From assembly GCF_014137995.1 (NCBI RefSeq), contig NZ_JACGWV010000001.1, positions 3,596,001 to 3,660,000 on the forward strand: a stretch of 64,000 bases of DNA. Direction: 5' to 3'. A program made the position numbers and the translations under genes. Source of the stretch: Promicromonospora sukumoe. Its GTDB lineage: Bacteria > Actinomycetota > Actinomycetes > Actinomycetales > Cellulomonadaceae. Below, piece after piece: positions 10,161 through 49,177 of this stretch (position 1 is the stretch's first letter; each line of letters begins with the position of its first letter). The notes beneath the pieces were generated by a model that saw only the letters and a list, made by a program, of their open reading frames with translations, was not told the origin of the DNA and ran no database searches.

Positions 10161-10164
10161 AGTA

Positions 10165-32868: not shown

Positions 32869-35800
32869 TTACCAGCTCCCGGCGGTCGCCCGGTCGCGTT
32901 CCTGCTCGGCGCGGCCGCGGCGAGCGCGTTCGTCGGCCTCTCGGCGCATCCATTCGGCGCTGACCCGCGCGTCAGCCAGCACGGCTGGCGCCCGTCCCAG
33001 CGGCTTGGGGCGGGGCCGGACCGGCCGGGCCACGGGTCGAGTTCCGGTGCCGCGGGCGGTGATGGTGTCCAGAGCCCGGTCGGCGATACCGCGGGCGTCG
33101 GCGCGCTCGCCCTGCCCGATCTGGGGTCCGAGTGGGTGGACGGGGTCGGTGATCTGGTACCTGTCGCGGTATGCCAGTACCTGCTCCATCGCCACCATCC
33201 AGGCCTCGCGTGCGGGACCGGGCAGGGGCGGCGGGATGATGGCCTCCATCCACAGCTGCGGGTCGGTGAGGGCGTCCTGGACCAGGGTGTTCAGGCGGGC
33301 AGCGATGAGGTCGGCGTGACGGGCCAGCCACGCGGCCACAAGCGGGTCCGTCTCCCACGCACGCGCGGCGTCGGTCTCCCGGTGTCCCGGGTCGGCGGGG
33401 TCGGTGTAGAGGGCGCCGTCGTGGTCCGGGCCGGTGTGCGCGTCGGGCAGGATCCGGCTGGCGAGGTGGTCGGTCACGACTCGCCGTACGGAGGGGACGT
33501 CGAGCTGGGCGTGGGTCGCCGAGCCGGGGGTGTCGCCGATGGCGCGTGCGACGTGTTCGACCAGGGGCCACCACTGGTCCAGCCCGACCCGGTCGTAGAG
33601 GTGGTCGACGAGGGCCCGCAGCGCCGGGATCTGTCGTTCGAAATGGTCCAGCTCTCGGATGGTCTGCAAGTTGGGCTCCATCGCGAACCAGCTCAGCGGC
33701 ATCGTCTCGGCCAGAGCACCGGCGAGAGCCCCGGGATTGTCGGTCGCGGTCTGCGCGGGGTCGGTCGGCAGATCAAGCGCTTGGGCGCGGGTGGCTTCTT
33801 CGAGGGTCAGCATGGCCCAGACCCGGGCCGCCGCGGTGCGGCCCGCGGCGTCGGGGTCCAGGGCGACGATCAGGTCGGACAGGTCCCTACCGGTCGCGTC
33901 ACGCAGGGCTTGCAGGTGCTGCTCGGTGATGCCGGTACCGCCGGCCGCGACCGGCACGATCTCGACCCCAGTCTGCTCCGCCAGGCGGACGGCGGCCAGA
34001 TGCAGGGCGGCGTGGTCGGTCGGGCCCTCGACCAACACCGGCCGGGCACCGGCCGCCAGGCGACTGATCGCGTCGGGGTCCAGACCGTAGACGAGCTCGC
34101 CCTTGCGGTACGCGGCGGTCTCGGGAGTGTTCAGGTACTTCGGTGCCCGCCCGTCACCGGTGTCTGCCTCGGCGGGGTTAATGCGTGCGGTGACGCCGAC
34201 GACCTGCCCGGTCTGGTCGCGGTAGGGGAACACGATCCGGTTGCGGAACTTGTCGATGACCCGCCCGTTCTTGGTACGGGTGGCGACCCCTGCGGTGACG
34301 AGCTGGTCGGGCGTGTACCCGAGGGACTCCAGGTGGTCGGTCAGGCCGGTCCACAACGCGGGAGCGGCACCCCATTCCGCGTCAATCAGGCCGCGGCTGG
34401 TCATGTACCGGGTCGCCCAGGACTGGGTGGACTTCTGCCCGGTCCACCATGCCCAGGCCCGGCTGGTGATCTCGACGACCAGGTCCCGCTCCCCCGCGTC
34501 GACCACAGGCTCCTTGGCACCGGTCCTGGCCGGCTCCCGATCCGTGCCCGCCGGGACGCACAAACCGCCCGTCGCACTGCTTTTGGTTCCGGCTTCCTGC
34601 GGCGCTGAGCCGTGCGACGGCGTCGTCCCGAGCGGGTCACCAAGCTCGTCCGCGCCGATCGTCGGGGCGCCAGCGGCCCAGACCATTTCGTCGGTGGTGT
34701 CGGGTGCTGTCGTGATCCAGGCCGGAAGTCCGCGCTCGTCGTGGTCGTGGGGGCGGGGTAGGCCGATGCGGTGGTGCAGGACCTTCGCGATCGACCGGGC
34801 GTTGCCGAACCCCGTGCTGGCCGCGCGGCGGACCACGGTGGCGGGGTCGGTACCGGCGGCCTCATGCATGGACAGCCGCTTGGCCAGCACCGGCCACACC
34901 TCATCGCCCAGGACCCGGTCCGCCACCCGGCCGGGCAGCACCGACCGCATAGCCTCTGCGAGGCGACCGGTGCGGTCTGGTTCGAGGAAGGCGAGGTAGG
35001 CGTCCTCGTACTCCGGGACGAGGCGGGCCAGGGAGTGCGCGTAATCCCACTCGTCCTCGATGACCCGGGAGGCGGACTGTTCCTCGCCGTCACGGTCCAG
35101 GACACCCTTGAGCGCGTTCAGCACCGCCCGCTCCAGGTCCGGCTGACGGTGCGGGTCCAATTCCAGGACGTCGTCCGTCTCCACGTAGACCCGGTTGGAG
35201 TCCGCGCCGCGGGTGATGGCGGTGTAGAGCTCGTTGCGGGTCATCCCAACGCCGACCATCGCGTGGGAGGTGTCGACGGTCATGCCCTGCACCCGGTGGA
35301 TCGTGGCCGCGTATCCGAGCTCGACATGCGCCGCGACGTAGTCGGCCGGGAGCACCACGGTCGCCCCAGTCTCCAGGTGGGTGGCCTGCAGCGCACCGTT
35401 CTCGTCGCGGGCGGTCACGCGCCAGAGGTCGCCGTTGCGGACCCAGTCGCGAGCCCAGTCGATGTGCCCGTCGTCGTGCTGGGCGCGCAGGTGGCGGTTG
35501 TTCAGCCGGGTCACGATGACGTCCCCGATCCCGGCCCGGTTCTCGTCGTGCAGGGCCACGCCGTCGTCCTCGACCTCGCCGCGGGTCACGCGGTGCAGGC
35601 GGGCGCGGGCGGACAGCTCGGTGACGAGGGTGTTGGTCGCGGCGATCATGATGGTCTTGCGACCGTGGTCGGAGTCGGTCTGCCAGTTGGCGAACATCTC
35701 CTCCGCCATCGCCGCTGCCGACCCACCCTGGGTGCGACGGCTGGTGATGTAGAAGTCCAGGCCACGGTGGTCGCCGTCGCGGAGCTGGAGGGAGGCTTCT

Positions 35801-38217
35801 GCTTCGCCTCCGGTGTGGAACCGGTGGATTTGCGTCAGCTCGACCGCACCGACCTGCTGCGCGATCAGCCGCAACGCGCCCCCGGCCGCGACGGCACCGA
35901 GCTGGGCCGGGTCCCCCAGCAACCGGACACTCCCACCCGCCCGCTGGGTGATGGCCAGGACGTCGGCGAGAGCGAGCGTGCCCGCGAGGCTGGCCTCGTC
36001 GACCAGGACCACCGTCCCAGGCTCCACCGTGAGGCGTTCGCGCAGACGTTCACTTCCCGCGCCGCGGTTAGCCAGGAGGAACATGTCCAGGGTCTCCGCC
36101 GTGATCCCGTCACCGAGGTCCGCGCCGAGGACTTCCGCGGCGGCCGCCGATGGCGCGAGAGCGATGAGCTTGCCGCCCGATTCCTGGACCGCTGTCGCGA
36201 AGGCGCGCATCGCGGTGGTCTTCCCGGTCCCGGCCGGCCCGATCCCCGCCGCCAGCACCGTGCTGGCCCCGAAGTGGGCCACCAGGTCCCGCTGCCCCCG
36301 GTTCAGGACCCGCCCCCGGTCGACCCGGACCTGATCGATCGCGCCCTCCACCGCGTCCGGGTCGATGACCAGGCCACCGGGAGTGCGGGCGGCGGCCAGG
36401 AGCTGGTCTTCGGCCTCCAGGACCGCGAGGGAGGTGTACTTCGTGGAGCCGTGCACGAAGTAGACGCTCTCGCCGTCCTTGCGGCGCATGACGTCCGGTG
36501 GCTCGTTCAGGTCTGGGGGCGTGATCACGAGGCTGCCCGCTTCCGCATACCCGGCGATCCTCGCTGCCAGGACCAGCAGGTCGGTCCCTCGGGGAGAGTG
36601 CTCGCGGGCCAGCCGGGTGGCTTCTGCCTGCAGGTGGTAGGTCGTCCAGGTCGCCCGTTTGCCCGCCACGTTCGTCAGGCACGCGTCGACAAGGTCGCCC
36701 TGAGCGCGCACCTGTGCGGCCCAGTCGGTCAGCACGGCTTGCCGGCCGGCCGGTGTGCGCCACCGCAGTTGCCGGAAGACCTGGGCGCGCGGCCACGCCA
36801 CAGCGAGGCGCTCAACCGCCCCGGTAACGTCCTGGGCCGCCCACCGGGCAATCCCCCGACCGGCCAGGTCCTGGGCGACGGCAGGCCAGAGGTCCTTCAG
36901 CTCGTCGACCACGACCCGTCCGGTGTCCGGGCGAGGGTGGAGCGCGCGGGCGAGCATGCGCTCTACCGCGTCTGGTCCGCCCATGACCGTGGCTGCCGTC
37001 TGCGCCCACTGGGGTAGCCGGTGACGCAGCCCGACCGGGGTGCCCTTGCCTTGGCGAGTATCTAGATTGGCTTGTTGCGTCAGCCGGTAGGCGGTCTTCG
37101 TGTCCGGCTCGTGCCCGTACTTCGCCCGGTATTCGGCCCGCAGGGACTCGTAGGACTCCTGGATCACCGCACGCCGCCTCGAGAACGCATCCCGGAGTGG
37201 CTTGGGGATACCGACGATCTCGCGCACACCTTGCTTGCCGCGCCCCCGGGTCTCGGTGTGGAACGCGACCCCGAGCACCTCGACGAGGAGCTGCTCGATG
37301 CGGGTGTTGTACCGCTCGGACGCCGCAACCTTCAGTCCCAATAGCACCCGGCCGTCCAGCGCGCGCCAGGTCCCGTCGACACCTAGCACCTTGGTGGAGA
37401 CCGCGACGTGCGTGTGCAGGTTGGGGTCGCCAGCCCGGGAGTCGAGGTGGTCGAACGCGACGGCGGTCAGCCCGTGAGTGTCGATCTGCCGCACACCACC
37501 CGCCCCGCCGCGGGTCAGCGCGGCCTCGGACTCGATCCATGCCAGGGTGTCTTGCCAGGCCTGGGTGTGCGCCTTCGTGATCGCCTCCCGCGTGGCCGCA
37601 TTGCCCAGACCCCACAGGACCGAGATGCTCTTGGACGGCGTGAACACCAGGTCGTACCCGGCCACGGCTTTGCGGGGCTGCTGACCCCGCTTCGCCAGCC
37701 AGGTCGCTACGTCCTTCTCAGAGACGCCGCCCGAGCCGCCCTTCTCGGTGTGCTCCTGCTGCGCCAGCGTGCGCGCGACGTTCCAGCGGATCAGGTCCCG
37801 CTCGACGCCTGCCTCCGGTGGCCGGTCGTTCTCGCGGGCGAACCGTGCGAATGCGGCTTCCAGCGCGGCGGTATAGCCGTCGTCGGCCTTGGCTTTGAAC
37901 TCGGGGAACGCGCGACCTAGCGCACCGACGCGAGCCGCGTCTTGCTTCGACACGCCGCGGGCGAGGGCTTCGACCTCCAAGCGGTCGGCGTCGGGGTGTC
38001 GGCCCTGGCCGAACAGGGACTTCATCTGCTTCTCCAGCACCTGGCCCGAGACCCCGAGCTGGTCGAGCCCCGTGCCGACCCAGTGGCCGGGCGGGTTGCC
38101 GTGCTGCATGTAGTAGTCCGTCAACGACATCCCGCGGCCCCGCGGCACATCGCCTGAGGCGACCTGCTGGGTGAGGTAGGTGTAGCCGCTGCCGGCGCTG
38201 AGCACGTGGACCGTCAT
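32869..38217 (-). CDS. MobF relaxase-helicase-primase fusion
   Basis: This 1782-residue protein starts at ATG 38217. The N-terminal TrwC-type relaxase has candidate Tyr in GYTYLTQQV, LTDYYMQHGNPPGHWVGTGL and the metal-binding triad in DPNLHTHVAVSTKV (about 262). A RecD2/TraI-like helicase follows, with Walker A GIGPAGTGKTTAM (about 660), VVLVDEASLAG, LLGDPAQLGAV and the late motif GYAATIHRVQGMTVD. The last 450 residues carry DnaG-type primase features: FRNRIVFPYRDQTGQVVGV, APKYLNTPET, VLVEGPTDHAAL (TOPRIM Glu) and LIVALDPDAAGR (TOPRIM Asp). It should nick oriT, unwind the strand and possibly prime synthesis in the recipient. No VirD4-like coupling protein is encoded nearby, so it probably depends on another element for export. 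Confidence 0.93.
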   Translation of the reverse strand: MTVHVLSAGSGYTYLTQQVASGDVPRGRGMSLTDYYMQHGNPPGHWVGTGLDQLGVSGQVLEKQMKSLFGQGRHPDADRLEVEALARGVSKQDAARVGALGRAFPEFKAKADDGYTAALEAAFARFARENDRPPEAGVERDLIRWNVARTLAQQEHTEKGGSGGVSEKDVATWLAKRGQQPRKAVAGYDLVFTPSKSISVLWGLGNAATREAITKAHTQAWQDTLAWIESEAALTRGGAGGVRQIDTHGLTAVAFDHLDSRAGDPNLHTHVAVSTKVLGVDGTWRALDGRVLLGLKVAASERYNTRIEQLLVEVLGVAFHTETRGRGKQGVREIVGIPKPLRDAFSRRRAVIQESYESLRAEYRAKYGHEPDTKTAYRLTQQANLDTRQGKGTPVGLRHRLPQWAQTAATVMGGPDAVERMLARALHPRPDTGRVVVDELKDLWPAVAQDLAGRGIARWAAQDVTGAVERLAVAWPRAQVFRQLRWRTPAGRQAVLTDWAAQVRAQGDLVDACLTNVAGKRATWTTYHLQAEATRLAREHSPRGTDLLVLAARIAGYAEAGSLVITPPDLNEPPDVMRRKDGESVYFVHGSTKYTSLAVLEAEDQLLAAARTPGGLVIDPDAVEGAIDQVRVDRGRVLNRGQRDLVAHFGASTVLAAGIGPAGTGKTTAMRAFATAVQESGGKLIALAPSAAAAEVLGADLGDGITAETLDMFLLANRGAGSERLRERLTVEPGTVVLVDEASLAGTLALADVLAITQRAGGSVRLLGDPAQLGAVAAGGALRLIAQQVGAVELTQIHRFHTGGEAEASLQLRDGDHRGLDFYITSRRTQGGSAAAMAEEMFANWQTDSDHGRKTIMIAATNTLVTELSARARLHRVTRGEVEDDGVALHDENRAGIGDVIVTRLNNRHLRAQHDDGHIDWARDWVRNGDLWRVTARDENGALQATHLETGATVVLPADYVAAHVELGYAATIHRVQGMTVDTSHAMVGVGMTRNELYTAITRGADSNRVYVETDDVLELDPHRQPDLERAVLNALKGVLDRDGEEQSASRVIEDEWDYAHSLARLVPEYEDAYLAFLEPDRTGRLAEAMRSVLPGRVADRVLGDEVWPVLAKRLSMHEAAGTDPATVVRRAASTGFGNARSIAKVLHHRIGLPRPHDHDERGLPAWITTAPDTTDEMVWAAGAPTIGADELGDPLGTTPSHGSAPQEAGTKSSATGGLCVPAGTDREPARTGAKEPVVDAGERDLVVEITSRAWAWWTGQKSTQSWATRYMTSRGLIDAEWGAAPALWTGLTDHLESLGYTPDQLVTAGVATRTKNGRVIDKFRNRIVFPYRDQTGQVVGVTARINPAEADTGDGRAPKYLNTPETAAYRKGELVYGLDPDAISRLAAGARPVLVEGPTDHAALHLAAVRLAEQTGVEIVPVAAGGTGITEQHLQALRDATGRDLSDLIVALDPDAAGRTAAARVWAMLTLEEATRAQALDLPTDPAQTATDNPGALAGALAETMPLSWFAMEPNLQTIRELDHFERQIPALRALVDHLYDRVGLDQWWPLVEHVARAIGDTPGSATHAQLDVPSVRRVVTDHLASRILPDAHTGPDHDGALYTDPADPGHRETDAARAWETDPLVAAWLARHADLIAARLNTLVQDALTDPQLWMEAIIPPPLPGPAREAWMVAMEQVLAYRDRYQITDPVHPLGPQIGQGERADARGIADRALDTITARGTGTRPVARPVRPRPKPLGRAPAVLADARVSAEWMRREADERARRGRAEQERDRATAGSW

Positions 38218-38721
38218 CACGGGCCCCCACCCCCTTCCGCAGGCGCTTGTCAGGCTGTTCCAGGTCGCCTTCGGCGGCCTCCGCTCACGGCTTGTGCATT
38301 AGGTGTGTGGCCTTCGTCGTGGCGGTCCGCGGGACCCGCTGTCCCGGTGCGCGCCTGCCCTCGTCGCGCAGCCGCGTGCATCGCGTCGGTGCATCGGTCG
38401 CGCGTACGTCGTCGCATGCCTGCGCGTCGCTGTCGCTGTTCGTCGCCGCTGTCGCCGCTGCTGGAAACGTGGCGGTGGGTCCCCGCGTCGAGACCCCACG
38501 CACCAAGGGCGGCCAGACTCCCCCGGGCATGCGAAAAGACCGCCTCCCATTCGGGATGGCGGTCTTCGGGCCGACAGGGAGTAACCCGGGGCGACGGGCC
38601 CTGAAACAAACAGAAGTTGCGAAGTCACCCGCCGAGTTGCGCGTCCCCCGGGCATACGGGATGCCTGTGTGCCACGCCACCCTTGTGTCGTGGCGTCACG
38701 AAGGAGGCCATCGTGCTGGAG
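38218..38721. other. Non-coding region upstream of relaxase, possible oriT
   Basis: These 500 bases separate the relaxase start from the end of an XRE gene. They contain short GTCGC-type repeats around 38396-38460, a near-inverted repeat at about 38262-38280 and the terminator at 38534-38566. Relaxase genes usually lie next to their oriT, so the nic site is likely here, but I cannot point to it. Confidence 0.4.
38534..38566 (-). terminator. Rho-independent terminator of the 38.7-kb XRE gene
   Basis: AAGACCGCC TCCC (38536-38548) pairs with GGGA and GGCGGTCTT (38553-38566) with one bulged T and an ATTC loop. On the minus strand it is followed by TTTT (38534-38537). It lies about 160 bases beyond the XRE stop codon. 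Confidence 0.75.
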
Positions 38722-39222
38722 CTACGCGACGGCGGGTGGTTCCAGAACGCCCACCAACTGGGCGTCGTCGGCAGCTGCGGCCTCCGCTGGGTGCTGGCCC
38801 TGTGGTTCGGTTCCCAAAAGTTCGTCGAGCTGATCGAGCGTCACCCCGAGCGCGTTAGCGATCCGAGGCCGAGCCCAGAGAGACGGCGTCGTGTCGCCGG
38901 CCTCCCAGCGGGTCACGGTCGACCGTTGGACCCCGACCTCCATCGCCAGGCCCTCCTGTGTCTTGCAGACTTCACGTCTGCGGCGGGCCAGCGCATCCCG
39001 GCGCGACTGCGGCGCGCGGCTCACCCCGTCGCGGAGGGTTGCGAGGCGAGCTGCTTCCCGCTCGGTCGGGTTCTTCTCCGGTTGACTGTGCGCGAGCACG
39101 ACCACGATGACGGCCGCAGTGTCGTCAGATTCGGCGAGCTGCTCGATCGCTCGCGTATCACCGGCAGCCTGGAGCAAGCGCTTGATGTCGCGCCTGTGGA
39201 GTGTCACTGCCTGGGTTGCCAT
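38722..39222 (-). CDS. XRE-family DNA-binding protein
   Basis: This protein is 166 residues from ATG 39222 with GAGGGGGA upstream; a longer frame lacks a ribosome site. The N-terminal half (QAVTLHRRDIKRLLQAAGDT, AVIVVVLAHSQPEKNPTERE) is unassigned. Residues about 85-145 form a Cro/CI-type helix-turn-helix: ARRRREVCKTQEGLAMEVGV then QRSTVTRWEAGDTTPSLWAR. It lies upstream of the relaxase and is probably a regulator of transfer genes. The palindrome at 39283-39301 in front of it could be its operator. Confidence 0.85.
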   Translation of the reverse strand: MATQAVTLHRRDIKRLLQAAGDTRAIEQLAESDDTAAVIVVVLAHSQPEKNPTEREAARLATLRDGVSRAPQSRRDALARRRREVCKTQEGLAMEVGVQRSTVTRWEAGDTTPSLWARPRIANALGVTLDQLDELLGTEPQGQHPAEAAAADDAQLVGVLEPPAVA

Positions 39223-39282
39223 GCGTCCCCCTCGATGGATGGTTCCCGACTGAACCAGAATCCGGGAGAAGCAAGACCCTAA

Positions 39283-39301
39283 GTACCCCACGGCGGGGTA
39301 C
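39283..39301. promoter_or_regulatory. Palindrome upstream of XRE gene
   Basis: GTACCCC at 39283-39289 and GGGGTAC at 39295-39301 form a 7-bp inverted repeat with five bases between. It lies 61 bases before the XRE start and 33 bases after the next gene's stop, a natural place for autoregulation. Confidence 0.5.
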
Positions 39302-39333
39302 CACCCATAGCCGCCAGCACTTGACGCCAGGTG

Positions 39334-40563
39334 TCAGGCCGTCTCGGGGTTGGCCGACCCGATCCAGGCCGCCAACGCGCGGACCTCTTCGCCGGCCTTG
39401 CGGTGCTGGCCGGCCAGGACGCGGACGGCTTCGCGCGCCATCGGGTGGTACCGCGTCTGCTGCGGTGCAACCGCGCGGGCCTGCTGCAACGCACCCAGAG
39501 CCGCGTCGCGGTCCTCAACGGCGATGAAGGCACGCGCGGCATCGATCAGATGGTGCCCTCGACGGGTTCGCGGCATCGAGGCGGGCAGGTGCAGCTCGCG
39601 GGCTCGTTCGGCGGCGATATCGGGGTGCTTGAGCTCGATCTGCGCGGCGATGTCGTGGACGGCGGTGTTCACCGGCCCGAAGGTCAGGTGGTAGTGGATG
39701 CGGTCGACGCCGTCAGGAACCCGCTCGGCCAGCCGACGTGCCTCCTCCAGGTAATGGACTGTGGCATCGTCGTCGCGAGCACGGGAAGCCTGCGTGACCT
39801 GCCGGAGCCGGATGCTTCCCAGCAGCGTGACTGCTGCCCCGGACGGATCGGCACCGACCGCCTCTTGAAGCTGGTCGTAGGACGATTCCAGGAGCCGGAG
39901 CCCGGTGTCGTAGTCCTTGGCGACCTGGAACCCGTTGGCGCGGGTCCACTGCGACAGGCCGATCGAGAGCGGGTCGTCGGCCAGTGATGACGCCCACTGA
40001 AGCCGCTCTTCGAGGATCGAGGCCAGGTCGACGTAGCCGAGGCGTGAGGCCAGGCAGTAGGCCATGTAGTAGCAAGAGGCCAGAAGGCGAGCTGCTCGGC
40101 GGCGGGCCTTGCCGTCCAGGTGGTGCACGCACGCGGTGAGCTCTTCCAGGAGTGCGGGGAGCATCTCGCCCAGTGCGGTGTAGCGGGCTGCGGCGCGGTA
40201 GCTGGTGGCCAGGTCGACGTCGCGGGCAATGGCGTCCAGTGACCGTGGTTCGGGGCGCCATGCGGGCGGGAGGTCGTAGGAACGCGCGACGGCGCGGATG
40301 GCTGCGATCGGGGCGTGGACACGAGCGTCGGACCGTTTGCGTCCGCGGTAGGGCTGGCCGGTGAGTTCCTCGACGCTGACGGCGAGCGTGCGCGCTGCGG
40401 TGTTGAGGAAGCCGTAGGTGGGCAGGCGCTCGCCCTGTTCGACCTTGCGGACCGCTCCCAGGGAGAGGTGGGCGTGGTCGGCGAACTCGCGCTGGGTGTA
40501 GCCCGCGAGCTTGCGGTAGGTCGCGATGCGCGATCCGACGGTCTCGTCCGCGTTGCCGGTCAT
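39334..40563 (-). CDS. XRE-family regulator with TPR-like domain
   Basis: This 409-residue protein has ATG 40563 after AGGGGAGG. Residues about 10-65 are a Cro/CI helix-turn-helix (SRIATYRKLAGYTQREFADH, LSLGAVRKVEQGERLPTYGF). The rest is helical with TPR-like repeats, e.g. YMAYCLASRLGYVDLASILE, VHYLEEARRLAERVPDGVDR and DAARAFIAVEDRDAALGALQ. This architecture is common in actinobacterial peptide-responsive and specialised-metabolite regulators. It lies 60 bases after the alpha/beta hydrolase in the same direction and close to the RiPP-like genes, which it plausibly controls. Confidence 0.88.
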   Translation of the reverse strand: MTGNADETVGSRIATYRKLAGYTQREFADHAHLSLGAVRKVEQGERLPTYGFLNTAARTLAVSVEELTGQPYRGRKRSDARVHAPIAAIRAVARSYDLPPAWRPEPRSLDAIARDVDLATSYRAAARYTALGEMLPALLEELTACVHHLDGKARRRAARLLASCYYMAYCLASRLGYVDLASILEERLQWASSLADDPLSIGLSQWTRANGFQVAKDYDTGLRLLESSYDQLQEAVGADPSGAAVTLLGSIRLRQVTQASRARDDDATVHYLEEARRLAERVPDGVDRIHYHLTFGPVNTAVHDIAAQIELKHPDIAAERARELHLPASMPRTRRGHHLIDAARAFIAVEDRDAALGALQQARAVAPQQTRYHPMAREAVRVLAGQHRKAGEEVRALAAWIGSANPETA

Positions 40564-40623
40564 CCTGGCCTCCCCTCGCGGTCTGGTGTCTCGCGCCAGG
40601 GTACCGGCGGCCCCTCGCTCCGG

Positions 40624-41445
40624 TCAGTGCCCCGGGGTGACCCAGTTGGTGATCGCCTCGATGACCTCGGTCTGCCAGGCCAGGGTCTGCGGCTGCTGGT
40701 AGGCCTTGTCGCCGGCGACGGCGAAGCCGTGGCCGGCTCCCTCGACGACCATAAGTCGTGACTGCTCGTTGAGTTCCTTGATCGCGTCGTAGGACGGGCC
40801 GATCGGGACCTGGGTGTCCGCGTCCCCGTGGACCAGCAAGGTCGGGGCGGCGACATCGCCGAGAGCCGTGTGGGGCTGGAGCCAGAAGACCTCGTTGAGG
40901 AACGCGCGCCCGTGCCGGAACGAGGTCGAGTACTGCAGGAACCCGTCCCGGGTCAGGAGGTCGGCGTGCTCGTCGTCCAGGTGGTCGTCCACCCAGTACG
41001 GCCGGCCGTCGATCGTGCGTGCCTTGTAGTCGATCCGCGGGCACAGCATCACCAGATGCTGCACCTCCGCCGGACGCCTCGCGGCGTAGTACGCACACAC
41101 CCCTCCGGCGAACGACTGACCCACCAGCGACGTCGTCGCAACGCCCGTCTCGGCGCGCAGCACCTCGAACCCGGCCCTCACGTCGTTGAGCAGGCCGGCG
41201 AGCGTCACGTCCTCCTGGGTTCCCTCGGACTCGCCGTGCCCACGCAGGTCGAACCGCAGCGAGGCGATCCCCGCCGCCGCGAGGCCTTCGGCGATCCGGT
41301 CGAAGAACCCTGACTCGTGCCGGGTCACGCCACGGCCGTGCACCAGAAGAACACCGATCTCGGGTGTGGTGTCGGGCATGACGACGTCGCCGACCAGGCG
41401 CAGGCCGTCGAGCGAGCGGAACTCCACACGAGACTCCGTGGGCAT
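40624..41445 (-). CDS. Alpha/beta hydrolase
   Basis: This protein is 273 residues from ATG 41445 with GGAG seven bases upstream. The fold markers are GVLLVHGRGVTRHESGFFDR (oxyanion region), RFDLRGHGESEG, the nucleophile elbow LVGQSFAGG, TLLVHGDADTQVP (Asp) and VEGAGHGFAVAG (His). It belongs to the peptidase/esterase-like serine hydrolases and is cytosolic. It is divergent from the 53-residue peptide and the AsnB-like ligase across a 243-bp regulatory region. In that context it could cleave a leader peptide or release a product; this is inference. Confidence 0.9.
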   Translation of the reverse strand: MPTESRVEFRSLDGLRLVGDVVMPDTTPEIGVLLVHGRGVTRHESGFFDRIAEGLAAAGIASLRFDLRGHGESEGTQEDVTLAGLLNDVRAGFEVLRAETGVATTSLVGQSFAGGVCAYYAARRPAEVQHLVMLCPRIDYKARTIDGRPYWVDDHLDDEHADLLTRDGFLQYSTSFRHGRAFLNEVFWLQPHTALGDVAAPTLLVHGDADTQVPIGPSYDAIKELNEQSRLMVVEGAGHGFAVAGDKAYQQPQTLAWQTEVIEAITNWVTPGH

Positions 41446-41587
41446 CACGTTCTCCAGGTCGGACGGGGTACTGACGTCCACAGTGTGCCCCACGCTCACC
41501 CAGCCGGGCCCGTTTGTCCGGCTAACCGGCGCCGAGGCGACAGCAGTGATCTGGGGTGGTGTCGGGTCGCGCCGCACGAACGCCGCA

Positions 41588-41618
41588 GGGATGCCGCACC
41601 GATGCTCTGGGATGCCGC
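41588..41618. promoter_or_regulatory. Direct repeat GGGATGCCGC, 21-bp period, before the RiPP-like genes
   Basis: The same ten bases occur at 41588-41597 and 41609-41618, two helical turns apart, within the divergent region between the hydrolase and the 53-residue peptide. The spacing fits tandem binding by a regulator, for which the XRE-TPR protein is the obvious candidate. Confidence 0.5.
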
Positions 41619-41688
41619 TGTGCTGGGCGTTTGGATCGGTAGCGGGCAGGCATGGCGTCTGCCCGGTTACCGATATGGGAGGTGCCTG

Positions 41689-41850
41689 ATGGAGATGTTC
41701 GAGCTTCCTCGAAAGCCTGACCTGGGCTTCGAGACCCTGTTCTGCTCTCGGTCCGTTCGCTTCGTGCAGTCCCCCGAAGAGGCGCACGACTACAAGAAGG
41801 TCTCCGGGTCGTCCGACGGCGCGAAGACCTACGACACCACGGCCGTCTGA
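41689..41850 (+). CDS. 53-residue putative precursor peptide
   Basis: This small gene has ATG 41689 preceded by GGGAGG at good spacing, and it ends 18 bases before the AsnB-like gene. The product begins MEMFELPRKPDLGFETLFC, continues with VRFVQSPEEAHDYKKV and ends SGSSDGAKTYDTTAV. It has one Cys and no signal peptide or hydrophobic helix. Size, position and linkage to a ligase and an acetyltransferase suggest a ribosomal precursor whose C-terminal Ser/Thr/Asp-rich part is modified. It does not show the usual lasso leader motif (YxxP and a Thr before the core). It was chosen as a gene because of its ribosome site and tight spacing. Confidence 0.75.
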   Translation: MEMFELPRKPDLGFETLFCSRSVRFVQSPEEAHDYKKVSGSSDGAKTYDTTAV

Positions 41851-41868
41851 CGAAAGGAGCAAAACCTC

Positions 41869-43440
41869 ATGCTGCGGATGCGTATCGATACCCGTGCGGC
41901 CGGTCCCCTGACGTGGACCGGCACGAGCTACCAGAGCCAGGACGGGGCGACCCGGATCACTCCGGTCGACAATCCCGCCGTCGAGCAGGTGGCCGTGACC
42001 GACCAGACCCGGACCCTGGTCGTGGTCCGCGAGAGAGCCTCCGGAACCAGCCCGACGTCGGCGGCCGTCGAGACGGTGACGCCGGAGGTCTTCGAGCGCA
42101 TCCGCAGCCTGGCCGTGCAGTGGCCGCTGGACTTCGTCGCGATCGAGCTGGCCGACGGCGAACCGGTGCGGGTGACCGCCGGGGCTGCTCGGGTCACGCC
42201 GCTGTACCTGGCCCATGACGCACACGTCCTCGCCGGGTCATGGGACATGGCCGACCTGACCGACTACGTGCGCGGGATCAACGTGCGCGAGGCCGCACGG
42301 CTGCTCGTGTACCGGCCCCGCTACAGCACCGACACGTTCTTCACCGGCATCTGGCACCTGACCGAACGTGCCACCGCACACTTCGCCGGCCACCTCGTGA
42401 TCCGTTACCCGGAACCCGCGCTCCACCTCCGCCCCCGTGAGCTGGCCCAGGACGCCGAGGTGATCGACGCCTTCACCAGCACCATCGACGTCGTCCTGGA
42501 CAAGCGGCCCCTGGATCCCGACCGGACGCTGTTCCACCTCACCGGAGGCTTCGACTCCGGCACCATCGCGGCCCGCGCCGCAGCACGCTGGCCCGGACGC
42601 CTGAAGACCGCAGCACTTCTCATCGGCGGACCCGGCCGCGACTCGCAGATCCGACGACGGACCGAGATGCGCACCGTCATGTCCTACGCCGAGACCGACA
42701 TCCTGATCGACGCCATGGCACACCAGCCCCTGGCCGCCGCCTGCCTACGCACCCAGGGCGCCCCCATCAGCCCGGCCGAAGAACCCCTGCACCACCCGTT
42801 CACGCTCATGGCCCGTGCCACCGCTCGGACCGGGGCGACCAGCGTCGTCACCGGCCTCGGCGGGGACGAGATGGTCGCCCTGTCCGTCGAGGAGTACCCC
42901 GACAAGAAGCTGCCGCCCCTGTCCACCGCGGCGGACCTGCCCTGGATCGGAGCGCGAACCCGGGCCGCGCTGGAGTTCGCGGACGACGGCATCGCCCCAC
43001 CTGCGCAGATCAACTCCATGACGCTCCTGTCGCTGGAGACCACCGCACCCGTCCTGCTGCGCGAAGGACTCTGGCCGGTCCACCCGTTCGCCGACCCGGA
43101 CATGGTCGCGCTCGGCGAACAGCTCCCCTACGACTGGCGAATGCTCAAGCAGCTCCAGCGCGAGCACCTGGCCTCGCACGGCATGTCCGACGACGTCACC
43201 CACCCCACCGCGCGCGAATCGTTCGCCGAACTCGTCCAGCACGCCCTGACCACCCAAGGAGTCACCTTGCTCAAGGAGATGCTCGACGAGGGATCACTGC
43301 TGTTCGACGAGAAGCTCGTCGACCCCGACGGCATCACCTCCGCCGTGGACCGCCTCCAGTCCGGCACCTACGGTGAGGACCACGACGCCAAGCTCCTAGA
43401 AGTCCTGACCCTGCACCACGCGACCACCGCCTACTGCTGA
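41869..43440 (+). CDS. Asparagine-synthetase-like ligase lacking the glutaminase Cys
   Basis: This 523-residue protein has ATG 41869 with AAAGGAG nine bases upstream. The C-terminal half is an AsnB-type ATP pyrophosphatase: LFHLTGGFDSGTIAARAAAR (PP-loop, normally SGGxDS) at about 224 and SVVTGLGGDEMVALS (normally GDGGDE). The N-terminal 200 residues have the size of the Ntn glutaminase domain, but residue 2 is Leu, not the catalytic Cys, so it should not hydrolyse glutamine. Such enzymes activate a carboxylate with ATP, as lasso cyclases and beta-lactam synthetases do. With a 53-residue peptide just upstream, amide or macrocycle formation on that peptide is the most natural hypothesis. Confidence 0.88.
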   Translation: MLRMRIDTRAAGPLTWTGTSYQSQDGATRITPVDNPAVEQVAVTDQTRTLVVVRERASGTSPTSAAVETVTPEVFERIRSLAVQWPLDFVAIELADGEPVRVTAGAARVTPLYLAHDAHVLAGSWDMADLTDYVRGINVREAARLLVYRPRYSTDTFFTGIWHLTERATAHFAGHLVIRYPEPALHLRPRELAQDAEVIDAFTSTIDVVLDKRPLDPDRTLFHLTGGFDSGTIAARAAARWPGRLKTAALLIGGPGRDSQIRRRTEMRTVMSYAETDILIDAMAHQPLAAACLRTQGAPISPAEEPLHHPFTLMARATARTGATSVVTGLGGDEMVALSVEEYPDKKLPPLSTAADLPWIGARTRAALEFADDGIAPPAQINSMTLLSLETTAPVLLREGLWPVHPFADPDMVALGEQLPYDWRMLKQLQREHLASHGMSDDVTHPTARESFAELVQHALTTQGVTLLKEMLDEGSLLFDEKLVDPDGITSAVDRLQSGTYGEDHDAKLLEVLTLHHATTAYC

Positions 43441-43470
43441 CCGCCCCTGGCCCTGCAAGGAGTCCCGACC

Positions 43471-44010
43471 GTGTTCACGATCCGACCCAGCACCACAGCC
43501 GACCGTCCAGGAGTGCGGGACCTGATCCTGGCCCGTTCGGACTGGCTCGAACAGCGAGGAATGGAGACGTGGCGCGACGCCGCGGAGTCGGTCGCCGACC
43601 TGGCCGGCGAGGACGGCGGAGGCATGTGGGTGGTGCAGGCCGGTCAGCAGATCATCGGCACCACCACCTTGCAGGACCAGGCTCCACCGGAGTGGACCGC
43701 CGATGAGGCCGCACAACCGGCCCTGTACCTGTTCACCACGGCAACTCACCCGGACTGGCGAGAGCACCGGATCGGCACCCAGATCGCCTGGTGGGCGCTC
43801 GACCACGCCGCACAACGCGATCTCGACTGGGTACGCCGCGGCTGCTACTTCGACGGACTTGCGGCCCTCTACCGACAGCAGGGCTACACGCTCGTTCGCA
43901 CGACCCAACGCAACACCCGCACGCTGCACATGTTCCAGCACCCGGCACAGTTGCGCAGCGACGTCGTCCTTACGGCAGCAACGGAGGCGCCGGATTTACC
44001 GGCCCGCTGA
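43471..44010 (+). CDS. GNAT-family N-acetyltransferase
   Basis: This protein is 179 residues from GTG 43471 with AAGGAG eight bases upstream and only 30 bases after the ligase gene, so it is probably co-transcribed. GNAT features are MFTIRPSTTADRPGVRDLIL at the N-terminus, WVVQAGQQIIGTTTLQD, the acetyl-CoA loop region ATHPDWREHRIGTQIAWWAL and YFDGLAALYRQQGYTLV. It should transfer an acyl group from acyl-CoA to an amine. In context it could modify the precursor peptide or protect the host. The lasso peptide albusnodin is a precedent for an acetyltransferase in such a cluster. Confidence 0.88.
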   Translation: MFTIRPSTTADRPGVRDLILARSDWLEQRGMETWRDAAESVADLAGEDGGGMWVVQAGQQIIGTTTLQDQAPPEWTADEAAQPALYLFTTATHPDWREHRIGTQIAWWALDHAAQRDLDWVRRGCYFDGLAALYRQQGYTLVRTTQRNTRTLHMFQHPAQLRSDVVLTAATEAPDLPAR

Positions 44011-44066
44011 CCGACGGTGGGACCAGCCCGCCATCCGTCCGCGCATCTGATCTAGCGGCTCTCTCG

Positions 44067-44504
44067 CTACCAGTAGTCAGGCGCGACGCGGCGGTCTCGA
44101 CGGGCTGACTCACGGACCAGAGCTAGGCGCCGCCGGATCTCGCGCCTGTCGATATGCGGTTCCGTCCTCTGGCGAACGATCCGTCGCGAGACAGCATCGA
44201 CATAGTCAGCGTCGTCGATGTTCGGGGCGATCGTGGTGTATCCGGCTGCTCTCTCACGGGAAACAGGGCGCTGCGCGACCCCCAGCGCGATCCGCCCTGC
44301 AACCAGTGAACCCCCGAACACCAGGAACGTCAGCAGCCACCAGTCCGGCGCAGGTTTGCCGTACCCGGCGAAGAAGCCAATACAGACCGGAACGAAGGTG
44401 ACGCAGCCGATCCACCAGCAGACCGACACAACGTGCATGGGCTTGCTTGCAGGTTGCCCGGGCACGAGGTCGACCTTGAGGTCGGGATGCCACGGTGTGC
44501 TCAC
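44067..44504 (-). CDS. Small membrane protein, unknown
   Basis: This protein is 145 residues from GTG 44504, chosen because GAGGAGGAATGTC directly precedes it; the frame runs further upstream without a ribosome site. Two membrane segments lie at about 25-50 (VVSVCWWIGCVTFVPVCIGF) and 57-78 (WWLLTFLVFGGSLVAGRIAL). The cytoplasmic tail is long and strongly basic (RQRTEPHIDRREIRRRLALV, then ESARRDRRVAPDYW). No family is recognised. It converges with the GNAT gene. Confidence 0.75.
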   Translation of the reverse strand: MSTPWHPDLKVDLVPGQPASKPMHVVSVCWWIGCVTFVPVCIGFFAGYGKPAPDWWLLTFLVFGGSLVAGRIALGVAQRPVSRERAAGYTTIAPNIDDADYVDAVSRRIVRQRTEPHIDRREIRRRLALVRESARRDRRVAPDYW

Positions 44505-44796
44505 GACATTCCTCCTCAACTCCCGGGCCATTCGCCTGCCGTGAGGCCGACCGTCAGCGGCAGCAAGCCGACGTCGGCTGTGGTCTCCCACTTGTACGTC
44601 TGCGCACGTCCCAGTCACGCATGAGCTCGAAGAAGCGTCCGGCCGTGGCCTGGCCCGGAATACTACCGGGCCCTGCACGCAGGAACTGTGGAAATGCGGG
44701 GAACGTGGTGCTGTTCAGGACCCTCGGGTCGCGGTCCCGACCAATGGTTCGCCCGGCGGTGGGCAGACTCACGTTCGGATCGGGCCGGAGTTGAGT
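44505..44796. other. Intergenic region, nothing recognised
   Basis: These 292 bases lie upstream of the small membrane gene and downstream of the HAD gene, both read leftwards. Short frames here have no ribosome site. I see no strong hairpin. Confidence 0.4.
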
Positions 44797-45909
44797 TCAT
44801 CGCTGCCAGATCGGCAGCTCGAACAGGGCTGGCCTGGCCTCTCCGCGGGTCCAGCGGGCTCGTAGTCCCAAATCGGTCGTCGGATAGCCAAGGCTCGCCT
44901 GATCCGCCGCGTCCGTGAGGGCCAGCATGGTGGACCCGACGGCTTCGGGGATCGGGGCGTGACGTCGCCAGGCGCGGGCGACCGCTGCGTGGATCTCTGC
45001 CCCGGCCAGCTCCGCGCCCGCTCCGTGCCAGACCCGCAGCTTGGTCACGCCCGGCGCCGACTCCACTGCGACGGCGAGTTGCGCCGCAAGGTCGGATAGC
45101 CCTGTCGTGTCGATGGGCGGCAGAAGTGAGTCCAGTGCCGTCGCGACGCCGTGCTCATCGATCGTGCCGGTGACCTCGTCAGCCACACCCTGCACAACGG
45201 CCGGCGCATGGCCCATGCTGATCCCACGCCCGGCCCAGGCCAGCGCTTCGAGGTCGTTCTCGGAATCCCCAACGGCCACCGTCGACCCGGGCGAGATATC
45301 GAGCTTCTCGCGCAGGACTTCGAGTGCACTCGCCTTCGTGACACCCGGGCCGGTCACGTCCAGCCACGACTCACCAGCCCGGGTGACGGTGGCACCGGTC
45401 GCCCGCAGCAGGTCGAGGTGCCTCGCGACGCCGGGTGCGGCCACCGCAACACGGGTAGCAGGGCTGGAGCACAGGTCGGCGACGGAGGCGACCTTCTGCT
45501 CGCCATTGACCTGGCCCGGCGCGAACGGCTCGTTCACGCGCCAGCCCCAACCCGGCTCCTCGACCGCGACCCGTGCAGGGGGTTCCAATTCCAGGGCACG
45601 ACGGATCACGGCCGTCGCGTCGAACAGGTCGGTGCGCACGAACCGGTACCCACCCGGAGCCAGCGGGTCGAGACGGACCGTCATGGCACCGTTCGAGCAC
45701 ACGACATACCCATCAGTCAGGCCGATACGCTCCGCGACAGGCAGCACGCCCGCAAGGGATCTTCCGGTCGCGAGCACGATCTGGTGGTGCCCCGCCGCAC
45801 GTGACAACCCGATCGAGCGGTGGACCGCGGGTGCGATGGTGCCGTCAGCCGACATGATCGTCCCGTCGACATCGAGCGCAATGAGTTTTCCGCGCACGAC
45901 GCCGCTCAT
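44797..45909 (-). CDS. HAD-IIB (Cof-like) hydrolase with C-terminal extension
   Basis: This 370-residue protein has ATG 45909 overlapping the upstream stop by four bases (ATGA). HAD motifs are KLIALDVDGTIMSADG (motif I, nucleophile Asp), IVLATGRSL (motif II), a Lys around 190 in GVTKASALEVL and STVAVGDSENDLEAL (motif IV). The Cof-type cap lies between motifs II and III. After residue about 255 there is an extra 115-residue domain (AVESAPGVTKLRVWHGAGAE and ALFELPIWQR) not typical of Cof phosphatases. It is probably a sugar- or nucleotide-phosphate phosphatase. It is third in a coupled operon. Confidence 0.88.
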   Translation of the reverse strand: MSGVVRGKLIALDVDGTIMSADGTIAPAVHRSIGLSRAAGHHQIVLATGRSLAGVLPVAERIGLTDGYVVCSNGAMTVRLDPLAPGGYRFVRTDLFDATAVIRRALELEPPARVAVEEPGWGWRVNEPFAPGQVNGEQKVASVADLCSSPATRVAVAAPGVARHLDLLRATGATVTRAGESWLDVTGPGVTKASALEVLREKLDISPGSTVAVGDSENDLEALAWAGRGISMGHAPAVVQGVADEVTGTIDEHGVATALDSLLPPIDTTGLSDLAAQLAVAVESAPGVTKLRVWHGAGAELAGAEIHAAVARAWRRHAPIPEAVGSTMLALTDAADQASLGYPTTDLGLRARWTRGEARPALFELPIWQR

Positions 45910-46253
45910 GAACGGCTCCCGAGACCCGACAGGACATGGCCGTGCCGGGTGGTCGGGTGCGGGTCGCCCAGCAGGACGCACCGCATCCCGTCCCGTTCCA
46001 GCTCGTACGCCAACCGGGTGTACGCCTCCGCCAGCCGCGCCTCAGCCGGGACCACTACGACGTCCACGCCGTGGGTGCGGGCGGCGTCGGCGACCTGGCT
46101 GATCGTGAGACCGTCACGCGTGTCGTCGAGGATCTCCACCAAGGCCAGCCCTTCGGCTGACACGTAGGCGGTGACCTCGCGGCTCTGGCGTTCGACTTCC
46201 GCTGTGTCCCGGGCGGCGACGTAGCCCAGCGCTACCGGACGCGGCCCGGTCAT
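45906..46253 (-). CDS. Resolvase-like N-domain protein without the catalytic Ser
   Basis: This protein is 115 residues from ATG 46253. It resembles the serine-recombinase catalytic fold: ALGYVAARDTAEVERQSREV, LALVEILDDTRDGLTISQVA, then THGVDVVVVPAEARLAEAYT and MRCVLLGD. The position normally holding the active Ser (Y-x-R-x-S) reads AARD here, and there is no DNA-binding C-domain. It is therefore unlikely to recombine DNA and may serve as a structural or regulatory protein. Four-base overlaps link it to both neighbours. Confidence 0.7.
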   Translation of the reverse strand: MTGPRPVALGYVAARDTAEVERQSREVTAYVSAEGLALVEILDDTRDGLTISQVADAARTHGVDVVVVPAEARLAEAYTRLAYELERDGMRCVLLGDPHPTTRHGHVLSGLGSRS

Positions 46254-46537
46254 CGCACGGCTCCCGCCAGCGAGCGGACGTGGCACTCCAGCCCGGCAAC
46301 CGTCCCGGACCAGTCCGCCACGGCGGGCGTCGCCAACCGGTGCACGACGCCTTCGGTCAAGCCCAGCTCACGTGCCATCACCACGCCGTCGGACAACCGG
46401 GACGGCTCGATCCGCACCGACCCACGCAGGATCGTCAGGCCCGCGACACGCTCTTCACCGAGCACGTCCAGGATCTCGATGAGGGCAACGAACATGCCGT
46501 GCAACTCGCCTGCTGGGGGTTTGCTTTGGGCCTGCAT
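46250..46537 (-). CDS. Small hypothetical protein heading the HAD operon
   Basis: This protein is 95 residues from ATG 46537 with GGAG nine bases upstream. It contains MFVALIEILDVLGEERVAGL and VVHRLATPAVADWSGTVAGL and looks helical, with no membrane segment. No family is recognised. Its stop overlaps the next start (ATGA), so it is translated together with the resolvase-like and HAD genes. Confidence 0.75.
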   Translation of the reverse strand: MQAQSKPPAGELHGMFVALIEILDVLGEERVAGLTILRGSVRIEPSRLSDGVVMARELGLTEGVVHRLATPAVADWSGTVAGLECHVRSLAGAVR

Positions 46538-46779
46538 GGCTCACGCTCCGGGTCTGGTCCGAGCCCGCTGGAACACGGACTCTCGTACCTTTCCCATCGA
46601 ACCCAAGGCACCATCCCGTCAGTAGCGCACAAGGGATGCGGTCACGACGCACCCTCGCCGCATGGACGGACATCGCACAAATGGACAGGAGAACTCGGCC
46701 CCTGGCGACGAACTGGAGCGCTCAGAGACCACGGCTTACGAGACGAGGTGGTGCGCGCTTCTGACCAGTAAGAACGTCC

Positions 46780-46813
46780 CGCACACCCGTGGTGTGCGCA
46801 GGTTAGGTGTGCG
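46780..46813. promoter_or_regulatory. Three half-sites GGTGTGCG upstream of the ParB-like gene
   Basis: CGCACACC (46780-46787) and GGTGTGCG (46791-46798) form a palindrome with a three-base centre, and a third copy GGTGTGCG follows at 46806-46813. They lie 33-66 bases before the leader peptide gene. This fits binding by an autoregulator, possibly the ParB-like protein. Confidence 0.55.
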
Positions 46814-46845
46814 GAAAGCGCGCGCTGGATCGTCACGGTGGAGTC

Positions 46846-46938
46846 ATGGCTACCACGCACGAGCTCGACCTGGCGCCGCTGGCGGTAGGCCATTGCTGGC
46901 CGTCGCGGCCTGTCTTGCAGGTGATGTGCGATGCCTGA
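46846..46938 (+). CDS. 30-residue leader peptide overlapping the ParB-like gene
   Basis: ATG 46846 follows GGTGGAG and encodes MATTHELDLAPLAVGHCWPS followed by RPVLQVMCDA. Its stop lies eight bases inside the ParB-like gene, which has no good ribosome site of its own. Translational coupling is therefore likely. The peptide may be only a coupling leader. Confidence 0.5.
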   Translation: MATTHELDLAPLAVGHCWPSRPVLQVMCDA

Positions 46939-47980
46939 GACCCGGCGACAGAAGCGGGACACCGCGGAAGGTCTGCTGCGCTTGGACGTAGCCGTCGACG
47001 CGATCACCGTCGGCGAGCGTCACCGGCACGACCTGGGCGACATCGACGCCCTGGCCGCGTCGATCCAACAGTTCGGTTTGTTGCAGCCGATCACGGTGAC
47101 CCCGGACCTGGTGCTGGTGTGCGGGTTCCGGCGCCTGATGGCGATCCAACGCCTCGGGTGGGCCACGACGCGCCCGTGGGTACGGAGTGGGATCTCCGAC
47201 CGGCTGCAAGCAGTGCTGGCCGAACGCGACGAGGTACAACTGCGCAAGCCCCTCAACGACGTCGAGGCGGCTCAGCTGTACCGGGAGATCAAGCAGCTCC
47301 TCGCCGAGGACGCCGCACGCCGCCAGTCAAGCACCCGCTTCGGCGCCGCCAACGCCGCCCAAGACACCACCGCAGAGCCTGCATCCGAAGCGGGGGCTAA
47401 TTCGGACATCGACGGTGGTGCCAAATCGGCACCACCGCGTGACCTGCGCGGACGGACTCGGGCGCAGGCAGCTCGGATCGTCACCGGGAAAGCGTCGTAC
47501 TCCCGCCTGGACCGCATCGCGACGCTGTCCGACATCGCGCAGGACCCCGATCGTCCCGAGCGGGTCCGGGCCCTGGCCGCCGAGGCCCTCGAACAAATTC
47601 GCGAGGGAGCATCCGTGTTCCCGCTGTACGACCGGGTCAAGGTCGAGCTCGCTGCGACCGACCCGACCGCCCAGGCCGTGGAATCGGTCAGCCAGGACGA
47701 CGTCGACGAGGTCGTCGCCGCTGCCATCCAGCGGTTGAACCAGCCCAAGTCGACCCGGGATACGCGCGGCAAGACGCGGCACTCACTGCGCGCGTTCGCA
47801 CTGCTCTGGCAGGGCTTAGACAGGTGGTGGGAGCACTACGACCCCGCTGACGTCGGCGCCGGCACCCACGAGAAGGACTGGGCCATGTTCGAGAACGTCC
47901 TGGAGCAGACCAACCGGTTCGCAGCCGCAGCGCGCGGCGTACGCGACCCGGCGGCCTGGCGCGACCAGACGGAGGCATGA
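46931..47980 (+). CDS. ParB-like nuclease-domain protein
   Basis: This 349-residue protein has an N-terminal ParB/Srx-like domain (about 18-110): DAITVGERHRHDLGDIDALA, ASIQQFGLLQPITVTPDLVL and VCGFRRLMAIQRLGWATTRP, where CGFRR is the ParB-type motif (usually GERR). A middle region has the helix-turn-helix-like AQAARIVTGKASYSRLDRIA, and the C-terminus is helical and Trp-rich. There is no ParA nearby. It may be a regulator or maintenance factor of the element. It is translated through the overlapping 30-codon leader. Confidence 0.88.
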   Translation: MPETRRQKRDTAEGLLRLDVAVDAITVGERHRHDLGDIDALAASIQQFGLLQPITVTPDLVLVCGFRRLMAIQRLGWATTRPWVRSGISDRLQAVLAERDEVQLRKPLNDVEAAQLYREIKQLLAEDAARRQSSTRFGAANAAQDTTAEPASEAGANSDIDGGAKSAPPRDLRGRTRAQAARIVTGKASYSRLDRIATLSDIAQDPDRPERVRALAAEALEQIREGASVFPLYDRVKVELAATDPTAQAVESVSQDDVDEVVAAAIQRLNQPKSTRDTRGKTRHSLRAFALLWQGLDRWWEHYDPADVGAGTHEKDWAMFENVLEQTNRFAAAARGVRDPAAWRDQTEA

Positions 47981-48079
47981 CCATCCGCAACCTGCAAGGC
48001 CTAAGGACCTGAGTCATTGTGCACCGACGGCCTCCGCCCTGCTCGTTCCCCAGTTCAGCATCGGGCGCGAGCCCGGTTG

Positions 48080-48128
48080 TGCAAGCTTCTAATGAGGATC
48101 GTGGGTTCGATTCCCACAGACGGCTCCG
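48080..48128 (+). other. tRNA 3'-half-like fragment
   Basis: The sequence contains a loop-like CTTCTAA and a perfect T arm GTGGG-TTCGATT-CCCAC followed by AGACGGCTCCGA. I cannot pair it with a matching 5' half, so it is not a complete tRNA. It resembles the 3' half of tRNA-Arg(TCT). It may be a former attachment site or a decayed tRNA carried by the island. Confidence 0.4.
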
Positions 48129-48165
48129 AAGGCCCAGGTCAGATGCACTTTCTGACCTGGGCCTT
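48129..48165. terminator. 14-bp perfect hairpin after the tRNA-like fragment
   Basis: AAGGCCCAGGTCAG (48129-48142) pairs exactly with 48152-48165 over a 9-base loop. It ends in TT only, so it has no long T tract, but stem strength makes a terminator likely. It could serve the ParB-like gene and the convergent membrane protein gene. Confidence 0.7.
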
Positions 48166-48267
48166 ATGCATTGCTGATCGGCTGGGGGTTAGCACCGGAT
48201 GCCAGGTAGGGCAGACCCAGCGCCAAGTCACTGAACTTGGTAGAGCGCTCGCCGACGACGCGCAGCG

Positions 48268-49128: not shown

Positions 49129-49177
49129 GGGCCCCAGCCTGGCAGAGGCGGGACGCCCCTGGGGAACTTGAGCACAA

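Follow-up and report, generated by a model that had tools for sequence, protein, structure and literature searches.

A conserved peptide-ligase cassette in Promicromonospora sukumoe as a candidate new family of Lys-Asp crosslinked ribosomal peptides

The window analysed here is a 64,000-nucleotide (nt) stretch of the Promicromonospora sukumoe genome (assembly GCF_014137995.1, contig NZ_JACGWV010000001.1, positions 3,596,001 to 3,660,000 of the forward strand), and its subject is a compact cassette in which a gene for a 53-residue peptide is followed by genes for an AsnB-like ligase and a GNAT acetyltransferase. An initial annotation had proposed the unit as an undescribed locus for a ribosomally synthesised and post-translationally modified peptide (RiPP), and all of the genes that it named were found in place. 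The sequence GGGAGG lies directly ahead of the ATG of the peptide gene. The peptide stop and the ligase start are 18 nt apart, and 30 nt separate the ligase end from the GNAT gene. The features of the cassette, numbered from the first base of the window, are as follows.

41689..41850, + strand: precursor peptide, 53 aa (translation; first-ranked upstream open reading frame (ORF) by ribosome site)
41794..41796, + strand: codon of Lys36, predicted acetylation site (association of this Lys with the window-type GNAT)
41797..41799, + strand: codon of Lys37, invariant Lys of Lys-x5-Asp (K-x5-D) and predicted crosslink donor (69/71 and 19/19 peptides)
41815..41817, + strand: codon of Asp43, invariant Asp of K-x5-D and predicted crosslink acceptor (69/71 and 19/19 peptides)
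41869..43440, + strand: AsnB-like ligase, 523 aa (Pfam Asn_synthase, E 1.4e-8)
42541..42561, + strand: PP-loop TGGFDSG, ligase residues 225-231 (sequence)
43471..44010, + strand: GNAT acetyltransferase, 179 aa (Pfam Acetyltransf_1, E 8.2e-8)

The initial annotation had staked its proposal on the peptide recurring beside the ligase in other genomes, and this was observed in each of three counts. With the window peptide as a tblastn query, 23 of 57 loci showed a relative ahead of the ligase gene. In a test blind to both motif and homology, the ORFs ending near the ligase start were ranked by ribosome site, and the best-ranked ORF contained K-x5-D in 68 of 72 loci, compared to 14 of 565 background windows drawn at random from the same loci at distances above 2.5 kb. 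Nine of 81 ligase-match loci (L019, L041, L043, L049, L051, L073, L075, L077 and L086), with a ligase that was truncated, broken or starting too late in the profile, were left out before this count, and the 72 include twice-fetched or near-identical loci (L016 and L064, L018 and L074, L084 and L085). The ranking missed four loci. The annotated peptide of L010 lies further upstream and has K-x5-D; for L031 the wrong frame was ranked first, and the homologous peptide has K-x5-D; L072 and L056 are considered below. In the curated set, K-x5-D was verified base by base in 69 of 71 peptides, the exceptions being L056 and L072. Thus, a precursor gene consistently adjoins the modifying enzyme, as in RiPP pathways. 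The window peptide and ten relatives matched no Pfam or NCBIfam family, the two chance-level rows at E up to 1 being far under the cut-off. Precursor genes of 31-47 codons were absent from the gene tables of eight plasmid records (L013, L081, L082, L084, L085, L086, L087 and L011), and annotation therefore underestimates the pairing.

The spacing of the two residues was retained in highly divergent members. When one peptide was taken per ligase cluster at <50% identity, K-x5-D was present in 19 of 20 and the next K-xn-D spacing in 10, while 2000 residue shuffles averaged 4.2 and never exceeded 10. For ligase clusters at <40% identity the motif was present in 10 of 10, and the next spacing in 4. 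Alignment of the 19 divergent peptides on the C-terminal copy of the motif left only the Lys and the Asp invariant, with Gly at +3 in 13. The residue preceding the invariant Lys varied, being Pro in 3 of the 19, and no conserved Thr was found two residues ahead of either Lys. Motif sequences ranged from KVSGSSD in the window to KMPGGGD, KPAGTED, KGGKPGD (R. leguminosarum), KPYLGDD (X. sacchari), KVRLPGD (Mesorhizobium) and KFLVRGD (Rhizobium NLR16a). The tail after the Asp was 6-12 residues long in all 19 divergent peptides and in 68 of the 69 motif peptides (26 residues in the remaining one), and 59 of the 69 tails contain Tyr, Phe, Trp or His.

Among 24 close-clade members, the 19-codon core gave a ratio of nonsynonymous to synonymous polymorphism (pN/pS) of 0.42, compared to 1.38 and 1.55 in the two shifted frames, and the 19 codons ahead of the core gave 0.76. 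These values show that the core is a true coding sequence under purifying selection and that the leader side drifts more. A conserved leader with a variable core had been expected at the outset, and the reverse was found; diversified antibiotics usually show the opposite of a kept core and a drifting leader.

Asn_synthase was the only Pfam match of the ligase at E 1; no NCBIfam family matched at its own cut-off and no lasso model at E 1. The PP-loop TGGFDSG corresponds to the SGGxDS loop of AsnB-like ATP-dependent ligases, and Gly226, Gly227, Asp229 and Ser230 were invariant in an alignment of 11 ligases. In glutamine-hydrolysing asparagine synthetases, an N-terminal Cys is the nucleophile of the glutaminase domain. 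The window ligase begins MLRMRID, so that the N-terminal Cys is missing, as the initial annotation had read it. None of 71 ligases, whose starts are estimated, had a Cys at residue 2 (found there were L, I, F, P, W or T), and 2 of the 71 had any Cys within the first six residues. Glutamine-derived ammonia is therefore not expected.

Against lasso cyclase models, relatives of the ligase reached 25.7 bits where 525 are needed and 35 bits where 300 are needed, while the canonical cyclase encoded elsewhere in the same genome passed its model (337 vs. 300 bits). The family profile gave 28 bits to the triculamin cyclase and 36 bits to the canonical cyclase of the own genome, and hhalign aligned the family with these two at probability 93 over only 132 and 188 columns, respectively. 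The single solved structure matched by the family profile was beta-lactam synthetase (E 9.5e-7, 240 of 528 profile positions), an enzyme that forms an intramolecular amide, as is predicted here, but whose substrate is a small molecule. By these sequence comparisons, the ligase family forms a branch of its own among AsnB-like enzymes.

The surroundings were surveyed in 56 actinobacterial loci by means of heuristic gene calls and single-linkage blastp clusters. Of 11 gene clusters present in at least 4 loci, 10 were identified, the ligase and the peptide among them, and a 112-aa cluster was not annotated. There was no peptidase among the annotated recurrent clusters (10/11), and no ATP-grasp family among the scanned representatives of recurrent neighbours. 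PF13471, the B2 leader peptidase of lasso pathways, had no match in 6 of the 17 carrier genomes searched and in 3 of 3 plasmid records. The six genomes include a single-contig assembly at 99% completeness and a 5-contig assembly at 100%, the other four being ungraded. The remaining 11 of 17 had one or more matches, the one in the own genome lying on another contig than the ligase. With no match in six carriers, the pathway seems independent of the lasso leader peptidase. Neither a cyclase recognised by the lasso models nor a required B2 peptidase in the cluster or genome was thus found for the family, and canonical lasso membership was rejected on these features. The conclusion that this is an undescribed, RiPP-type cassette departing from the lasso plan was borne out in the features tested, although the family may still work like a lasso pathway.

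Graspetides contain a side-chain amide between a Lys and an acidic residue. The product type predicted here, a side chain-to-side chain Lys-acidic amide, is the same (PMC13097080), whereas graspetides are made by an ATP-grasp ligase and the cassette encodes an AsnB-like one. With TsrC, ScdTA and PesC the cassette shares an AsnB-like enzyme working on a ribosomal peptide (PMC13060819); in contrast to those enzymes, which add nitrogen at a C-terminal carboxylate, its ligase lacks the glutaminase Cys and has a Lys as predicted nucleophile. Canonical lasso pathways likewise place a ribosomal precursor beside an AsnB-like enzyme without glutaminase Cys, with an isopeptide to Asp such as is predicted here, and optional acetylation by a GNAT is described for albusnodin in PMC13352647. 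Unlike them, the cassette family does without a B1/B2 partner in at least 6 of 17 carriers, as judged by PF13471, and has an invariant Lys. Triculamin and lariocidin show the Lys2-x5-Asp8 spacing and a self-resistance-linked acetyltransferase (PMC13192320, PMC13352647 and PMC11451635), but the triculamin core follows straight after the Met and is continued by a C-terminal extension, whereas the motif of the cassette is C-terminal, behind approximately 20-50 residues. For this comparison the triculamin locus was taken from the L027-bearing genome (S. triculaminicus). The ligase is not close to TriC, and a triculamin-type lasso was rejected on the bit score and the short hhalign span given above.

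In 33 of 71 loci, a relative of the window GNAT is encoded no more than 1.5 kb from the ligase. A Lys directly before the invariant Lys was present in all 31 loci with a window-type GNAT and in none of the 35 without it. This count covers the 66 loci having the motif and more than 700 bases downstream; L056 and L072 (no motif) and L018, L023 and L046 (short flank) were left out. Among the short-flank loci, L023 and L046 have both the GNAT and the Lys doublet, and L018 has neither. On a ligase tree of 60 rows, with 11 of the 71 left out, GNAT presence required two changes and the doublet one.

The best account of these observations is a new RiPP family, with a ligase that forms an isopeptide between Lys37 and Asp43 and a GNAT that acetylates Lys36, a reading to which we assign a probability of about 0.58. 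The ligase would recognise the N-terminal half of the precursor, where a motif like FExLF or DELF recurs, and would use ATP to activate the Asp43 side chain on the intact precursor. Joining of Asp43 to the side-chain amine of Lys37 would then close a Lys-Asp isopeptide ring of seven residues close to the C-terminus, with a loss of 18 Da, and acetylation of Lys36 (+42 Da) would serve as tailoring or self-protection. Expression of the genes is probably under the control of the adjacent TPR-type regulator, which may also sense the product. A side-chain amine is favoured over an N-terminal one by the near-invariant Lys, the variability of the residue preceding it, the lack of a glutaminase Cys and a leader peptidase that seems dispensable, and the occurrence of Pro before the invariant Lys argues against that Lys supplying an N-terminal amine.

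Several points weigh against the Lys37-Asp43 crosslink or the assignment of Lys36. One or two events on the tree underlie the GNAT-Lys36 association, which leaves one independent pair and a sign test without power. Moreover, four alphaproteobacterial records (L080, L084, L085 and L087) have a different GNAT two genes past the ligase and no Lys doublet. Because of these few events and four records, the association is a lead on the acetylation site rather than proof of it. The peptide of L072 is frameshifted. In L056 (Nocardia gamkensis, 6500-7000), the ligase is open and falls within the GNAT clade, but the candidate peptide has no Lys and no GNAT is nearby, which represents either decay or a real variant. 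Some of the distant peptides were picked after the motif was known, and the motif-blind ranking is the fairer test. A short lasso would share the K-x5-D spacing, and the geometry suits it. Finally, triculamin, which is a lasso peptide, also has Lys2-x5-Asp8, according to PMC13192320.

The alternative that survives best, though unlikely, is a lasso-like one. Here an unlinked protease would release the leader just ahead of Lys37 (or Lys36), the exposed N-terminal amine would be coupled to Asp43 by the ligase, and the 10-residue tail would thread the resulting ring of 7 or 8 residues. Ring size, the 6-12-residue tails and their frequent Tyr, Phe, Trp or His all fit a small lasso; lasso cyclases are themselves AsnB-like, and the family aligns with the canonical and triculamin cyclases over part of its length; triculamin has a Lys equally far from its ring Asp (PMC13192320); and the genome of the window has a B1/B2 pair elsewhere. 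Such a route is difficult to reconcile with the six carrier genomes without a PF13471 match, the lack of a recurrent peptidase in the loci, the variability of the residue before the invariant Lys, where even Pro is found, and the lack of a conserved Thr two residues before either Lys.

Improbable, by comparison with the Lys37-Asp43 crosslink, is a ligase that amidates or activates the Asp side chain or the C-terminus without forming a ring, as TsrC, ScdTA and PesC act at C-termini. AsnB-like RiPP enzymes with such chemistry are known, and PesC takes free ammonia too (PMC13060819), but none of the 71 ligases has the glutaminase Cys and the invariant Lys would be left unexplained, so that amidation or nitrile chemistry was demoted to a minor alternative. 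Least probable is a role of the small protein as a partner or regulator of the ligase that is not itself processed (a subunit or a leader-like protein), with another molecule as the substrate of the ligase. This would agree with a core that is kept rather than diversified and with the absence of a recurrent transporter or protease beside GNAT-type cassettes, but not with near-perfect conservation limited to one Lys and one Asp or with a second Lys that tracks the acetyltransferase gene.

The genes immediately upstream of the cassette are the following.

38722..39291, - strand: second XRE regulator, membership doubtful (HTH_31, E 3e-9; tblastn relatives in only 3 of 57 loci)
39334..40563, - strand: XRE-TPR-type regulator, divergent, probable cassette regulator (HTH_31, E 3e-9; its blastp cluster recurs upstream in 8 of 56 loci)
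approximately 40624..41445, - strand: alpha/beta hydrolase, a neighbour and not a conserved part (Pfam Hydrolase_4, 3e-23; no relative in 57 loci)

The alpha/beta hydrolase had been suggested as a substitute leader peptidase. This role was rejected, since tblastn at E 1e-3 found relatives in 0 of 57 loci, some of which have short flanks. The TPR part of the regulator at 39334..40563 was assigned by length and blastp cluster, no Pfam match covering it. The proposed link to a regulator proved stronger than had been thought, but the commonest partner is not of the window's type. In 31 of 56 loci, the first 2 kb upstream contain a divergently oriented member of a cluster whose representative is an NsdA-family TPR regulator (NF053720, E 8.2e-136); the XRE-TPR cluster of the window is found that close upstream in 8 of 56, divergent in 2 and on the same strand in 6. 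One or the other TPR-type regulator was upstream in 39 of 56 loci, as a raw count. These neighbouring regulators hint at a signalling role and, taken with the conserved core, suggest that the actinobacterial peptide may have been kept as a signal and not diversified as an antibiotic.

Other neighbours were less frequent. Downstream of the ligase, 18 of 56 loci have a methyltransferase gene, and the GNAT is absent from all 18. In a sister branch (L011, L060, L062 and relatives), with peptides such as MNVDELFTG...DKMPGGGDNNGDHCSK, a Cys lies near the C-terminus and a methyltransferase gene stands directly after the ligase. A PCMT-like methyltransferase occurs in 6 loci, in 5 of which it is far from the ligase, and an ABC transporter cluster occurs in 8 of 56 loci, within 2.5 kb downstream in 5 of these. 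In L080, L084, L085 and L087, the operons consist of ligase, APH-like phosphotransferase and the different GNAT, and their K-x5-D peptides are 31-54 aa long; phosphorylated peptide variants are possible there.

The ligase is rare. A protein search of the own genome and relatives matched 6 of 149 genomes, the own one included, with the match in G112 weak and partial, and of 396 genomes of the phylum searched with a profile at E 1e-15, 2 including the own had a match. A single-pattern scan of a collection of 84,980 species found at least 57 loci, mainly in Streptomyces, Nocardiopsis and Actinomadura, a lower bound given that one pattern was used. Within the family to which the organism of the window belongs, one genome encodes the same ligase sequence as Myceligenerans pegani. 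Matches were also found in 52 plasmid records, of which 33 were from Rhizobium and 12 from Bradyrhizobium, and 18 annotated plasmid regions were read; one scan of viral contigs with a single protein gave no viral copies. In four Rhizobium plasmid records (L015, L078, L079 and L083), the peptide-ligase pair follows an acyl-homoserine lactone (AHL) synthase gene. Two of these records, L078 and L083, name RhiA; in L083, nifHDK lie downstream and the ligase is broken in two.

No description of the peptide-ligase family was found in the open-access PMC literature, subscription papers being outside the scope of the search. A 2026 preprint counts approximately 300 uncharacterised asparagine synthetase-like RiPP candidates, which may include the cassette family, and assigns most of the AsnB-like RiPP enzymes counted to lasso pathways (PMC13060819). 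If the Lys37-Asp43 reading is true, a lone ligase and a fixed Lys-x5-Asp substrate constitute a two-gene route to lactam-stapled peptides, the substrate would provide a built-in signature for genome mining, and the crosslink prediction is exact to the residue. The pair spans Actinomycetota and rhizobia, with AHL synthase beside it in four records and nif genes in one. A broader and rather doubtful proposal is that the lone AsnB-type ligase defines a new RiPP class with a Lys-Asp side-chain amide made on the intact precursor, that the conserved acetylated product of actinobacteria is a peptide signal to which the neighbouring TPR regulators (NsdA family or XRE-TPR) respond, and that in rhizobia the two genes form part of AHL quorum-sensing circuits carried by symbiosis plasmids.

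The initial annotation had also placed the cassette on a mobile element, and such an element was located, integrated in a tRNA-Val gene.

9210..50937, no strand: integrative element carrying the cassette (44-nt tRNA-Val end repeat, integrase, relaxase)
32869-38220: TrwC relaxase-primase
49454-50794: tyrosine integrase, adjoining the tRNA gene
50894-50968: tRNA-Val

The end of the tRNA-Val gene (50894-50937) is repeated as an exact 44-nt copy at 9210-9253. The cassette is cargo of an integrative element of approximately 41.7 kb, which is probably conjugative. On contig C2 of the same genome (approximately 968-972 kb; L090, 2131-5689) there is a separate lasso cluster with a cyclase of the albusnodin/ikarugamycin type, B1 and B2, and after it lies an ORF that by eye resembles a PIMT-type methyltransferase.

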